From positions 1 through 5,302 of the forward strand of contig DATCKS010000173.1 of NCBI GenBank assembly GCA_036562265.1: a stretch of 5,302 nt of DNA, in the 5' to 3' direction. Source of the stretch: DASVDK01 sp036562265 [NCBI: Thermodesulfobacteriota bacterium]. Its GTDB lineage: Bacteria; DASVDK01. A model generated the notes under the pieces. That model was not told the DNA's origin, searched no databases, and saw only the letters and a program-made list of their open reading frames with translations. Positions 1 through 5,302 of this stretch are shown in pieces (positions within the stretch are counted from its first letter, which is position 1; every line of letters starts with the position of its first letter). Made by a program: the position numbers and the translations under genes.

Positions 1-2937
<2,937 letters not shown>

Positions 2938-2939
2938 CG

Positions 2940-3680
2940 ATGGCCCCGGCCGCGGACGTCTCGTTCCTCGTCGCGTTCGTCGCGGGCGTCCTCTCCTTCG
3001 TCTCACCCTGCGTCCTGCCGCTCGTGCCGTCGTACCTGTCGGTCGTGAGCGGCCTGTCGTTCGATCGGATGACCGACCCGCTCGACGCCGACGCGCGCCG
3101 CCGGGTGCTCGTCCACGCGGCGCTCTTCATCGCCGGCTTCTCGCTGGTCTTCATCGCGCTCGGCCTCTCGGCGAGCGCGATCGGCCGCCTCCTCGGCAGT
3201 CAGCGGAGCTGGCTGCCGACGGCGAGCGGGGTCCTGATCATCCTGCTCGGCGTCTACATCCTCGCGACGCCGCTCCTGCCGGCGCTCGGGGTCGAGGCGC
3301 GCCTCGTCCACCTGCGCGCCAGGCCGGCCGGCTACCTCGGGTCGGTCCTGGTCGGCATGGCCTTCGCCGCCGCCTGGACCCCCTGCATCGGCCCGACCCT
3401 CGGCGCGATTCTGACCCTGGCGTCCACGCGGGAGCACGCCGGGTCGGCCGCCGCGCTCCTCGTCGTGTACTCGCTCGGCCTCGGGGTGCCGCTGCTCACC
3501 GCCGCGGCGGCGTTCAACCGCTTTCTCGCCCTGTTCGGCGCCGTGAAGCGGTACATGCCCGCCGTCACCGTCGCGAGCGGTCTCCTGCTCGTGGCGGTCG
3601 GCGTGATGACGCTCACGGGTCACCTCACGCGACTGAACCTCTACCTCCTGCGCCTCTTCCCGTTCCTGATCCTCAACTAG
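2940..3680 (+). CDS. ccdA: CcdA/DsbD-type cytochrome c biogenesis thiol-disulfide carrier
   Basis: This is a 246-residue inner-membrane protein that passes electrons from cytoplasmic thioredoxin to periplasmic thiol-disulfide proteins, keeping apocytochrome CxxCH cysteines reduced for haem ligation. About six hydrophobic helices are visible. The two redox cysteines are in the expected places: C24 in SFVSPCVLPLVPSYLS in the first helix and C149 in AAWTPCIGPTLGAIL in the fourth. It has no periplasmic thioredoxin or DsbD alpha domain, so it is the short CcdA form. ATG 2940 begins 2 bp after the eno stop; an in-frame GTG at 2934 overlapping that stop is an alternative. A ResA/CcmG-like partner is not seen here. 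Two c-type cytochromes a little downstream are natural beneficiaries. Confidence 0.93.
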   Translation: MAPAADVSFLVAFVAGVLSFVSPCVLPLVPSYLSVVSGLSFDRMTDPLDADARRRVLVHAALFIAGFSLVFIALGLSASAIGRLLGSQRSWLPTASGVLIILLGVYILATPLLPALGVEARLVHLRARPAGYLGSVLVGMAFAAAWTPCIGPTLGAILTLASTREHAGSAAALLVVYSLGLGVPLLTAAAAFNRFLALFGAVKRYMPAVTVASGLLLVAVGVMTLTGHLTRLNLYLLRLFPFLILN

Positions 3681-3699
3681 CAAGGCCGGGCTCGGGCGG

Positions 3700-3717
3700 C
3701 GCCGGGAACCTCCGGCG
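3700..3717 (+). other. Short GC-rich hairpin after ccdA
   Basis: CGCCGG and CCGGCG form a perfect 6-bp stem with a 6-nt loop, 20 nt after the ccdA stop. No T-run follows, so it is not a standard intrinsic terminator. It could slow transcription or protect a 3' end, or be chance in GC-rich DNA. Confidence 0.3.
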
Positions 3718-3721
3718 AACG

Positions 3722-3758
3722 GAGCGGTCGGGCCCCGCCGCGGACGGGGTGACCGCTC
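3722..3758 (+). other. Two-part stem-loop upstream of the gcvH-like gene
   Basis: GAGCGGTC (3722-3729) pairs perfectly with GACCGCTC (3751-3758). Inside it CCCCG (3733-3737) pairs with CGGGG (3745-3749) around a 7-nt loop, with a small asymmetric internal loop between the stems. It ends 2 bp before a TTGACA. With no T-run it is not a classical terminator; an operator or attenuating structure is possible. The pairing is seen directly; the function is unknown. Confidence 0.4.
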
Positions 3759-3760
3759 GC

Positions 3761-3789
3761 TTGACAGCCCCGAGAGGGACGGCCATGAT
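3761..3789 (+). promoter_or_regulatory. Possible sigma70-type promoter at the gcvH-like start
   Basis: A perfect TTGACA at 3761-3766 is followed by 17 bp and CATGAT (3784-3789), a four-of-six match to the -10 box. The -10 overlaps the first ATG codons, so transcription would begin near 3796, essentially at the in-frame ATG 3797, and give a leaderless message. It may be fortuitous. Confidence 0.3.
3772..3779 (+). promoter_or_regulatory. Ribosome binding site of the gcvH-like gene
   Basis: The purine-rich GAGAGGGA ends 5 nt before ATG 3785 and favours that start over ATG 3797, which would be 17 nt away. Confidence 0.5.
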
Positions 3790-4237
3790 GCCGCGCATGG
3801 GGCCTCTGGGCTACCGTTACTCGGCGCACCACCTCTGGGTGAGCCGTATCGGGCGGATCGCCCGCGTCGGCATCACCGACTTCGCCCAGCGCGAGCTGGG
3901 GGAGGTGCTCTTCGTCGAGCTGCCGGAGGTGGACGACGAGCTCGAGCGCAACGAGACGTTCGGCGAGATCGAGTCCGGCCGGACGACGAGCGAGCTGGTC
4001 ATGCCGGTCACCGGGACGGTGGTCGCCGTGAACGAGGAGCTCGACGAGACGCCGGGCGTCGTCAACGAGGACCCGTACGGTCGCGGCTGGCTCGTCGAGG
4101 TCGAGCTGGCCGACCCGTCCGAGCTCGAGGAGCTGATGGACGCCGAGGCGTACGCCCGGCTGGTGGACGCGGAGGCCGATCCGGACGATGCCGCCGCGTA
4201 CCCTCACGGGGAGAACGGCAACGCCGACGACCGCTAG
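3785..4237 (+). CDS. GcvH-like lipoyl-domain protein lacking the lipoyl lysine
   Basis: This 150-residue protein is homologous to the glycine cleavage H protein. Recognisable parts are YRYSAHHLWV (the usual HEWV strand), GITDFAQRELGEVLFVELPE, the hairpin region, PVTGTVVAVNEEL, and VVNEDPYGRGWLVEVEL followed by LMDAEAYARLV. In true H proteins the hairpin reads ESVKA and its lysine carries lipoate. Here the aligned segment is ESGRTTSEL, with R66 (codon CGG 3980-3982) in place of that lysine, and the protein has no lysine or cysteine at all. It therefore cannot be lipoylated and is unlikely to work as the carrier in glycine cleavage; none of gcvT, gcvP or lpd is in the window. An acidic tail of about 20 residues exceeds the usual length of about 125-130. 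It lies between ccdA and cytochrome genes, so a role linked to cytochromes or a binding scaffold is possible, but its function is unknown. The start is 3785 from the ribosome binding site; 3797 is the alternative. Confidence 0.88.
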   Translation: MMPRMGPLGYRYSAHHLWVSRIGRIARVGITDFAQRELGEVLFVELPEVDDELERNETFGEIESGRTTSELVMPVTGTVVAVNEELDETPGVVNEDPYGRGWLVEVELADPSELEELMDAEAYARLVDAEADPDDAAAYPHGENGNADDR

Positions 4238-4562
4238 GCGCCCGGTCGGGGTCGCCCTCGCCGCGCTGCTGGTCGCCTCCGCGTCGGCCCCCGCCTTCGC
4301 CGGGCCGGCGTCGGGGGGGGACCCTGCGCGCGGCCGGGCCCTCTTCGGCTCTCGCAACTGCAACCTCTGTCACAAGATCGACGGCCGCGGCGGCAACCTC
4401 GCCTCGCCGCTCGACGGGGTGGGGCGGCGGCTGTCGGCCGACCGGATGTTCCGCATCCTGCGCGACCCGCGCTCGTTGAACCCCGAGGGGCACATGCCCA
4501 ATCCGAACCTCTCCGAGGACGAGGCGCGCCACCTGGCCGCCTACCTGGCCACGCTTCGTTAG
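4188..4562 (+). CDS. Exported monohaem class I c-type cytochrome
   Basis: This is a 124-residue precursor of a small periplasmic electron carrier. A basic N-terminus and hydrophobic stretch (about 20-36) end in APAFA, with a likely Sec signal cleavage after A38. The haem site is C58-N-L-C61-H62, and the sixth ligand is probably M103 in GHMPNPNLSEDE. The closing helix EARHLAAYLATLR is typical of class I cytochrome c. The mature part is about 86 residues. The start ATG lies inside the end of the gcvH-like gene, a 50-bp overlap in another frame. It is the only start codon that gives a full signal peptide; a GGAGG 12 nt upstream is weak support. Reading through from the gcvH-like gene suggests coupled translation. 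The natural partner is unknown; the trihaem protein just downstream is a candidate. Confidence 0.9.
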   Translation: MPPRTLTGRTATPTTARRPVGVALAALLVASASAPAFAGPASGGDPARGRALFGSRNCNLCHKIDGRGGNLASPLDGVGRRLSADRMFRILRDPRSLNPEGHMPNPNLSEDEARHLAAYLATLR

Positions 4563-4567
4563 GGACC

Positions 4568-4870
4568 GTGCTGCGCCTGCTCGTCGCCGCCGGGCTGCTC
4601 GCCGGGACGACCCTCGGCGCGGCCGCCGAGCGGGGCGGCGACATCCGCTACGACGCCGGCCCGGGGCCGGTGGTCTTCCGCCACTCGACGCACGACACGC
4701 CCGAGATGCGCTGCTCGACCTGCCACACGCGCCTCTTCCCGTTCCGGCCGGTCGGCGGCTTCGGCCACGCCGGCATGCGGGCGGGACGGGCCTGCGGCGC
4801 CTGCCACGACGGCGCGCAGGCGTTCGGCTCCGAGGACGCGGCCGCGTGCGGGCGCTGCCACGCACGGTAG
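4568..4870 (+). CDS. Exported trihaem c7-type cytochrome
   Basis: This is a 100-residue precursor of a miniature multihaem periplasmic electron-transfer protein. A signal peptide of about 20 residues ends in LGAAA. The mature part of about 80 residues has three haem sites: C49-S-T-C52-H53, C76-G-A-C79-H80 and C94-G-R-C97-H98. Exactly three other histidines exist, H39, H42 and H67, enough for bis-histidine coordination of all three haems. The FRHSTHD before the first haem site is the cytochrome c3/c7 pattern, and the layout matches the c7-type trihaem domain found singly or in repeats in metal-reducing and similar bacteria. It starts at GTG 4568, 5 bp after the preceding cytochrome gene, with an AGGGA too close to be an ideal ribosome binding site; coupling is likely. 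It probably forms one unit with the upstream cytochrome. Confidence 0.92.
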   Translation: MLRLLVAAGLLAGTTLGAAAERGGDIRYDAGPGPVVFRHSTHDTPEMRCSTCHTRLFPFRPVGGFGHAGMRAGRACGACHDGAQAFGSEDAAACGRCHAR

Positions 4871-4884
4871 CGGAAGCCCTTTTT
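4850..4884 (+). terminator. Probable intrinsic terminator after the trihaem cytochrome gene
   Basis: GGGC (4850-4853) pairs with GCCC (4876-4879), and GCTGCC (4854-4859) pairs with GGTAGC (4866-4871, one G-U), with a 6-nt loop and a 4-nt bulge (4872-4875). Five T residues (4880-4884) and a further pyrimidine-rich stretch follow at once. The stem overlaps the end of the coding region. The bulge weakens it, but this is the clearest T-run after a stem in the window. Confidence 0.5.
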
Positions 4885-4907
4885 CTCTGGTCTTGCCTCC
4901 GGCTCGC

Positions 4908-4916
4908 TGATACACT
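4908..4916 (+). promoter_or_regulatory. Possible extended -10 promoter of ftsB
   Basis: TGATACACT combines the TGn extension with TACACT, a four-of-six -10 match. The best-spaced -35 (TGGTCT at 4888-4893, 17-bp spacer) is poor, as extended -10 promoters allow. Transcription would begin about 20 nt before the ftsB ATG. It lies just after the likely terminator, which suits a separate transcription unit. Confidence 0.38.
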
Positions 4917-4930
4917 TCGGCGCCCCGTAC

Positions 4931-4935
4931 GGAGG
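4931..4935 (+). promoter_or_regulatory. Ribosome binding site deciding the ftsB start
   Basis: GGAGG lies 8 nt before ATG 4944. An in-frame GTG at 4935 overlaps this site and is therefore unlikely to be the start. Confidence 0.7.
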
Positions 4936-4943
4936 TGAGCCGC

Positions 4944-5231
4944 ATGAGCGGGAAGCGCCGTTTCTCGATCCGTGTCGTGCTCGCCGGTCTCGTCCTCGCC
5001 GGGATGGGCGTGGCCACCGTCTTCGGAGACCGTGGGCTCCTGCGGATGCTCGCCCTCGAGCGCGACCTCGCGGCGGTCCAGGCGGCCACCGACCGCCTCG
5101 CCGAGGAGAACCGCCGGCTCGCCGCCGCCATCGCCAGGTTGCGCGACGACCCGCGGGCGCTCGAGGCGGCCGCCCGGCGCGACCTCGGCCTCGTCGCCCC
5201 CGACGAGATCGTCTTCGAGTTCCCGGAGTAA
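4944..5231 (+). CDS. ftsB: FtsB/DivIC family septum formation initiator
   Basis: This is a 95-residue bitopic cell-division protein that bridges FtsL and FtsQ in the divisome. A short basic cytoplasmic end (MSGKRR) is followed by one membrane helix (about residues 11-28), then a leucine- and alanine-rich coiled coil (about 32-68, with AEENRRLAAAIARLRDD). The family's closing pattern of ALEAAARRDLGLVAPDEIVF follows at 72-91. Length fits (E. coli FtsB is 103). The start is ATG 4944 from the GGAGG. FtsB-type genes commonly sit next to eno; here about 2 kb of redox genes lie between them. The name FtsB rather than DivIC rests on that gene-order argument and is tentative. Confidence 0.88.
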   Translation: MSGKRRFSIRVVLAGLVLAGMGVATVFGDRGLLRMLALERDLAAVQAATDRLAEENRRLAAAIARLRDDPRALEAAARRDLGLVAPDEIVFEFPE

Positions 5232-5236
5232 CGCGC

Positions 5237-5302
5237 GTGGCGCCGGCGATCGTCGTCGCGGCGCTCGTGCTGGCCGCGGCCGGCCTCGGGGCGGCCCGCA
5301 CG
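5237..5302 (+). CDS. 5' end of a secreted or membrane protein gene (partial)
   Basis: A GTG at 5237, 8 nt after a GGAG and 5 bp after the ftsB stop, opens a frame that runs off the window. The 22 visible residues, beginning MAPAIVVAALVLAAAGLGAA, are a hydrophobic segment like a signal peptide or membrane anchor. No function can be read from this. The tight spacing suggests co-transcription with ftsB. Confidence 0.55.
   Translation, partial: MAPAIVVAALVLAAAGLGAART

Follow-up and report, generated by a model that had tools for sequence, protein, structure and literature searches.

The question raised by this locus is whether an H-protein can be retained by a bacterium once the lysine that carries its lipoate is gone. 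In the excerpt of PMC6067878, the epsilon-amino group of a lysine is the point of lipoyl attachment, and the attachment motif is written Ex2Kx10G in the excerpt of PMC4518038. In the window (i.e., the whole stretch of DNA analysed, 5,302 bases long), a gcvH-like gene has an arginine codon at this very site. The features needed to follow the argument are:

3785-4237, plus strand: gcvH-like ORF, complete, 150 codons plus stop, with possible starts at ATG 3785 (150 aa), 3788 and 3797 (146 aa)
3830-3838, plus strand: HLW for HEW, with the L17 codon CTC at 3833-3835; first of the signature sites (L17, L42, G65)
3971-4015, plus strand: lipoyl-attachment motif, ESG-R-(x10)-G, with the R66 codon CGG at 3980-3982

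The encoded protein is a genuine member of the GcvH family. It matches Pfam GCV_H (PF01597) with an E-value of 1.8e-39 (134.9 bits vs. a cut-off of 22.2), scores 151.2 bits with NF002270 (cut-off 117) and 138.2 with TIGR00527 gcvH (cut-off 115.85), and the solved sequences that it matches at E <= 0.001 are all named H-proteins (14/14). With TIGR03077 not_gcvH, a separate H-like model, it scores 63.1 bits, below the cut-off of 144.05. GC3 is 0.97 across residues 1-128 of the gene and similar in its neighbours, and the coding signal is normal; the G+C content of the window lies between 68 and 77% (500-base steps).

The structure was predicted with AlphaFold2 from P0001 (149 aa, from ATG 3788; its residue numbers are those of the 150-residue count minus one) and 33 lysine-bearing relatives. 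The mean pLDDT is 87.5, with block means of 92-98 for residues 11-120, and a single stretch, residues 137-149, falls under 50. In the model, the turn bearing the arginine is flanked by strands 57-63 and 67-71 (P0001 numbering), and the best solved match is the H-protein of Thermus thermophilus (1onl), with a target-normalised TM of 0.95 and an rmsd of 0.8 Å. Since the 33 lysine-bearing relatives in the alignment favour the canonical fold, the model indicates fold compatibility and is not independent proof of it; read in this way, the Arg66 protein is predicted to keep the H-protein fold.

The attachment motif reads here ESG-R-TTSELVMPVT-G, that is, Ex2Rx10G; codon 66 is CGG (Arg) and codon 65 is GGC (Gly), and at least two base changes are needed to turn CGG into a lysine codon (AAA/AAG). 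For comparison, 203 searched loci gave 201 matches longer than 80 residues (shorter ones were dropped) and these, in turn, 179 distinct GcvH-family proteins from genomes, plasmid records, E. coli and viral contigs; L082 and L090-L097, not being H-protein loci, were left out. Site 66 is lysine in all 179 of them, a sample that leans heavily towards Bacteroidota and Bacillota, and the full Ex2Kx10G with the distant glycine is present in 161. The window protein, with Arg66, lacks the lysine of Ex2Kx10G by which a functional lipoyl carrier is recognised.

Conservation reaches 95% or more at 23 columns across 149 family proteins, and the window protein differs at two of these columns, E17 and K66. 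In the other 149 proteins, 121 have no departure at these columns, 20 have one and eight have two to four. The number of departures is thus ordinary, as eight of the 149 have two or more; what matters is the place of the change. The original prediction, which was made from the sequence alone, had described a GcvH homologue with arginine for the lipoyl lysine amid conserved family segments, and had proposed a structural comparison with GcvH: the ORF, the profile scores above cut-offs and CGG at codon 66 bear out the homologue, the 21 of 23 retained columns bear out the conserved segments, and the agreement of the predicted model with 1onl points the same way.

The 150-residue product of ORF 3785-4237 has no lysine and no cysteine. 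Because Arg66 is accompanied by no other lysine, amide-linked lipoate cannot be carried, and we infer from the sequence that lipoylation has been lost in this protein. The original prediction had set the absence of both residues against the use of lysine by neighbouring genes. This is correct as a fact, but too much weight was given to it: seven neighbouring ORFs together contain 18 lysines among 1,382 residues, from which the probability of finding none in 150 is 0.14; it becomes 0.09 when tatA is added (23 lysines in 1,450 residues) and 0.33 when enolase is excluded. Moreover, the cytochrome c7 product is likewise lysine-free. The idea of "no lysine" as a selected trait was hence rejected, as it is roughly what composition predicts (0.09-0.14) where neighbours have a lysine content of 1.3-1.6%. 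Single-lysine members account for four of the 149 other family proteins; in the two examined in full, the ordinary H-proteins of plasmid records L103 and L106, the one lysine present is the lipoyl site, which represents the natural minimum of the family. Where the G+C content is high, a protein can thus be left with no lysine but the lipoyl one, and the informative part is then the loss of that residue.

Apart from Arg66, the window protein has three unusual residues: leucine at 17 (HEW to HLW), leucine for V42 and glycine for V65. We take E17 and V65 to lie near the lipoyl arm or cofactor in known H-proteins. Out of the 179 family proteins, 24 lack E17 (22 have threonine, two leucine). All 24 have L42, and position 65 is glycine or alanine in 23 and serine in one (L111), while L42 or G/A65 occurs in none of the 155 proteins with E17. 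These 24 proteins are not independent, since 23 come from one Bacillota class (26 genomes searched; the phylum was sampled around Indiicoccus); the remaining one, L111, belongs to Acetoanaerobium noterae. The lipoyl lysine is kept in 24/24, and the window protein has arginine. In consequence, the signature is not a mark of lost lipoylation, and the step from lysine to arginine belongs to the window protein alone.

Longer stretches were examined around 14 signature-type genes. At least one gene for dihydrolipoyl dehydrogenase, acetyl-CoA synthase, a corrinoid protein, methylene-THF reductase or formate-THF ligase is present at 14/14 loci; at L175 the sole such neighbour is a fragment of 64 residues on the edge of the contig. 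The identities of 11 neighbours at signature loci, picked by eye, were checked with profiles. Queries with E. coli GcvT and GcvP gave no match in these 14 loci and matched in 3/3 control loci with an annotated gcvT or gcvP. The occurrence of gcvH and lpdA close to methylene-THF reductase genes of acetogens is treated in the excerpt of PMC8760232. At positions 17, 42 and 65, the window protein looks like these H-proteins beside C1 genes: it has the Wood-Ljungdahl-type residues (L/T17, L42, G/A/S65), without the kept lipoyl lysine (R66), and lpd, acsB, acsC, metF and fhs queries gave no match within the window. Signature-type loci are L131, L132, L134, L172-L177, L185-L199, L203, L205-L209 and L213-L220, of which L217-L219 (HLW type, judged by eye) lie outside the 179 and are three of the 14 examined in longer stretches.

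Regarding kinship, in the all-column tree the window row joins the signature paralogues with 97/92 support, in a place where long branches meet and with an unusual composition of the window protein. When the four signature columns are removed, this grouping is not supported in two trees; in a further tree, with 13 signature rows, the window is placed with 19 signature-less rows, making a set of 20 (support 95/88, bootstrap not settled). A clade of the window and the 13 signature rows is there disfavoured by 28.6 log units, yet not to the point of rejection (p-AU 0.161). Kinship with the Wood-Ljungdahl type is not claimed, as the full-tree support rests on the signature columns. Since the grouping is not supported without those columns, shared features are claimed and not shared descent; L17, L42 and G65 may have been reached either by kinship or by convergence.

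The window ORFs are exbD, exbB and tatA (all on the minus strand), enolase, ccdA, the gcvH-like gene, cytochrome c, cytochrome c7 and divIC. Around the gcvH-like gene, the following features can be distinguished:

2940-3680, plus strand: CcdA/DsbD-type membrane protein (Pfam DsbD_TM, 4.5e-16), the upstream neighbour
3761-3789, plus strand: sigma-70-like promoter, TTGACA-17-CATGAT (10/12 match), with its expected start point on ATG 3797
4171-4175, plus strand: candidate ribosome-binding site GGAGG, inside the gcvH-like gene and 12 bases 5' of the cytochrome c ATG
4188-4562, plus strand: monohaem c-type cytochrome ORF, whose first 50 bases overlap the gcvH-like gene
4568-4870, plus strand: cytochrome c7-type tri-haem protein (Pfam Cytochrome_C7, 1.4e-14; TIGR04257 above cut-off)

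The promoter call at 3761-3789 is a consensus match and not proof, and it is the sole sigma-70-like match in 2800-5302 (shuffles gave a mean of 0.0, sd 0.1). CATGAT is followed by the seven bases GCCGCGC and then by ATG 3797. The ten-base string GCCGCGCATG, which also follows TACAAT ahead of the enolase ATG at 1645, occurs twice in the window vs. 0.04 expected, and one in 200 shuffles reached two. On account of the promoter position and of the GCCGCGC-ATG in common with eno, the gene probably starts at ATG 3797 (146 aa) rather than at 3785, and its transcript is perhaps leaderless. The starts of eno (1600-1660) and of the gcvH-like gene (3755-3812) are indeed alike (-10-like hexamer, GCCGCGC, ATG), a common layout that hints at leaderless transcripts in this organism; the -10-like site of enolase (TACAAT) was not called by the sigma-70 scan. 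On the minus strand, a strong sigma-70-like match (TTGACA-17-GAGAAT, 1531-1559) lies ahead of tatA, divergent from enolase.

ATG 3797 lies 116 bases from the ccdA stop. Because the promoter-like site stands in the gap after ccdA, the gcvH-like gene is not grouped with eno-ccdA, and ccdA probably forms a separate transcription unit. In the other direction, the cytochrome c stop and the c7 ORF are five bases apart, and co-transcription of the gcvH-like gene with cytochrome c and c7 is likely from this layout. The role linked to CcdA and the cytochromes that had been proposed from the sequence must consequently be narrowed: the promoter-like site between them tells against CcdA, whereas the 50-bp overlap and the five-base gap favour the cytochromes. 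Just upstream of the promoter-like site there is an inverted repeat, GAGCGGTC/GACCGCTC (3722-3758, 21 bases between the arms), which may serve as an operator or belong to the ccdA end. An Rfam search gave no match.

Compared with known H-protein systems, the window protein resembles canonical GcvH (PF01597, TIGR00527) in its predicted fold, core length, 21 of 23 top-conserved columns and scores above cut-offs, and differs from it in the arginine for the lipoyl lysine, HLW for HEW, the lack of gcvT/gcvP beside it in the window and some 20 extra acidic C-terminal residues. With the Wood-Ljungdahl-side Bacillota paralogues (L131/L172, L203/L213) it has in common L/T17, L42 and G/A/S65, as well as the lack of gcvT/gcvP nearby (none in 14 loci); these paralogues differ in keeping the lysine (24/24) and in having C1 genes and lipoamide dehydrogenase as neighbours. 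LbpA, of Hdr-like sulfur oxidation, is also GcvH-like and acts outside glycine cleavage, according to the excerpt of PMC6067878, in which the lysine is strictly conserved across 95 aligned LbpA and a pair of cysteines is conserved too, apart from some archaeal members. Unlike LbpA, the window protein has neither lysine nor cysteine, and no hdr gene is found among the nine ORFs tested. GcvH-L, encoded in an operon with sirtuin, macrodomain and LplA2 genes, offers another H-fold in a non-glycine role, comparable in this to our reading of the window, and is lipoylated on Lys56 (excerpt of PMC4518038); in contrast, LplA2, sirtuin and macrodomain are absent from the window's nine tested ORFs.

The Arg form is known from one sequence only, with no close relative among the matches listed, the closest of which has 57% identity (G017) and none more. 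The same ceiling of 57% among the matches listed applies to two phylum-wide samples, one of 299 genomes centred on Bacillota and one of 296 centred on Bacteroidota (30 loci were examined from each). A genome-contig scan gave at least 80 loci, nearly all from Bacteroidota, and was dominated by common 8-mers. In plasmids and phages (tblastn), only matches under 60% identity were found among those listed: at least 163 plasmid records were matched, and the sequence, examined in nine of them, has lysine in 9/9; at least 18 phage records were matched. In viral contigs, (i) the P0001 query had one match, L082 (residues 116-149), which looks like chance; (ii) the family alignment A2 gave seven loci, all with lysine; (iii) the enolase query gave eight loci, without other window genes; and (iv) ccdA and the degenerate ESGR pattern had no match. 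A search of the anti-phage library gave no match. A limited literature search found neither a description of a lysine-less GcvH nor a paper on GcvH together with CcdA.

As to what such a protein might do, since amide-linked lipoate cannot be carried, a cofactor-free docking or regulatory H-fold module is proposed as its most likely role, a reading held with slightly less than even confidence. With arginine as the attachment residue and no other lysine, the H-fold protein would bear no amide-linked lipoate; its own promoter would drive the gene together with the two cytochrome c genes behind it; and the H-protein surface would bind a partner, the protein acting as an adaptor and not as a swinging-arm carrier. 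The two cytochromes are the partner candidates in sight, and an adaptor role together with any given partner is a guess. The main rival is that of a redundant gcvH paralogue which recently lost its cofactor site and is drifting, its intact fold reflecting recency. That arginine appears in none of 179 distinct relatives and in a single strain agrees with such drift, as does the existence elsewhere of gcvH genes without gcvT/gcvP neighbours (L104, L106). Nevertheless, drift fits poorly with the 21 of 23 top columns and the normal coding signal, with the promoter-like site of its own and the tight spacing with downstream genes, and with positions 65 and 66 having changed together in the attachment turn along with the linked 17 and 42; it is regarded as somewhat unlikely. 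In the L104 (Tsukamurella) and L106 (Gordonia) plasmid records, gcvH is flanked by a phosphatidyltransferase gene on one side and an FHA-domain/GarA gene on the other; MerR regulators are present as well, and these stretches have no gcvT/gcvP annotated.

Another candidate is a decoy, which would bind lipoyl ligase, lipoyl synthase, dihydrolipoyl dehydrogenase, GcvT or GcvP as a non-substrate and so tune lipoylation or glycine cleavage; this would suit a protein that has lost the acceptor residue but retains its predicted fold and most of the conserved columns. Yet, of the nine ORFs tested, no other than the gcvH-like gene belongs to lipoate metabolism or glycine cleavage, queries with GcvT, GcvP and Lpd had no match in the 5.3-kb window, and E17 and V65, presumably near the cofactor, have changed too, which makes a decoy improbable. 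A carrier of a non-covalent ligand held through Arg66 (e.g., a haem propionate or some anionic cofactor that serves the adjacent cytochromes) gains something from the adjoining cytochrome genes, but it is quite improbable: direct evidence for a ligand is lacking, and we know of no chemistry of this kind for the H-fold. Least probable of all is an ordinary gcvH whose lipoyl codon was misread in sequencing or assembly; the window comes from a single record, but an error would have had to make at least two base changes between a lysine codon and CGG, and 17, 42 and 65 are unusual as well. Concerning the cofactor-free docking or regulatory module, the original prediction of a fold kept for a lipoate-free role holds as far as the predicted H-fold, the 21 of 23 columns and the normal GC3 go, and not in the weight that it placed on the absence of all lysine. 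Other barrel-sandwich hybrid domains have become structural modules after losing their lysine. In parallel to them, a bolder and rather doubtful proposal is that of a "pseudo-H-protein", a new cofactor-free class that would have been recruited as partner or regulator of the c-type cytochrome pair, with 17, 42 and 65 reached by descent or convergence.

An H-protein kept without its lipoyl lysine would show that the fold is useful in itself. As described in excerpts of PMC6067878 and PMC4518038, LbpA and GcvH-L, two GcvH-like systems outside glycine cleavage, keep that lysine. The window protein, if the reading as a cofactor-free module is true, would be a natural control separating docking from carrying in lipoate biology. 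Caution is also advisable in annotation, as TIGR00527 names the Arg66 protein gcvH by a clear margin, though it is unfit as an amide-linked lipoate carrier. H-proteins with a possible role outside glycine cleavage can be picked out in a simple way by the residues at positions 17, 42 and 65. The linked-signature type might merit a model of its own; in NCBIfam, the signature-type examples that were tested come out as plain gcvH.
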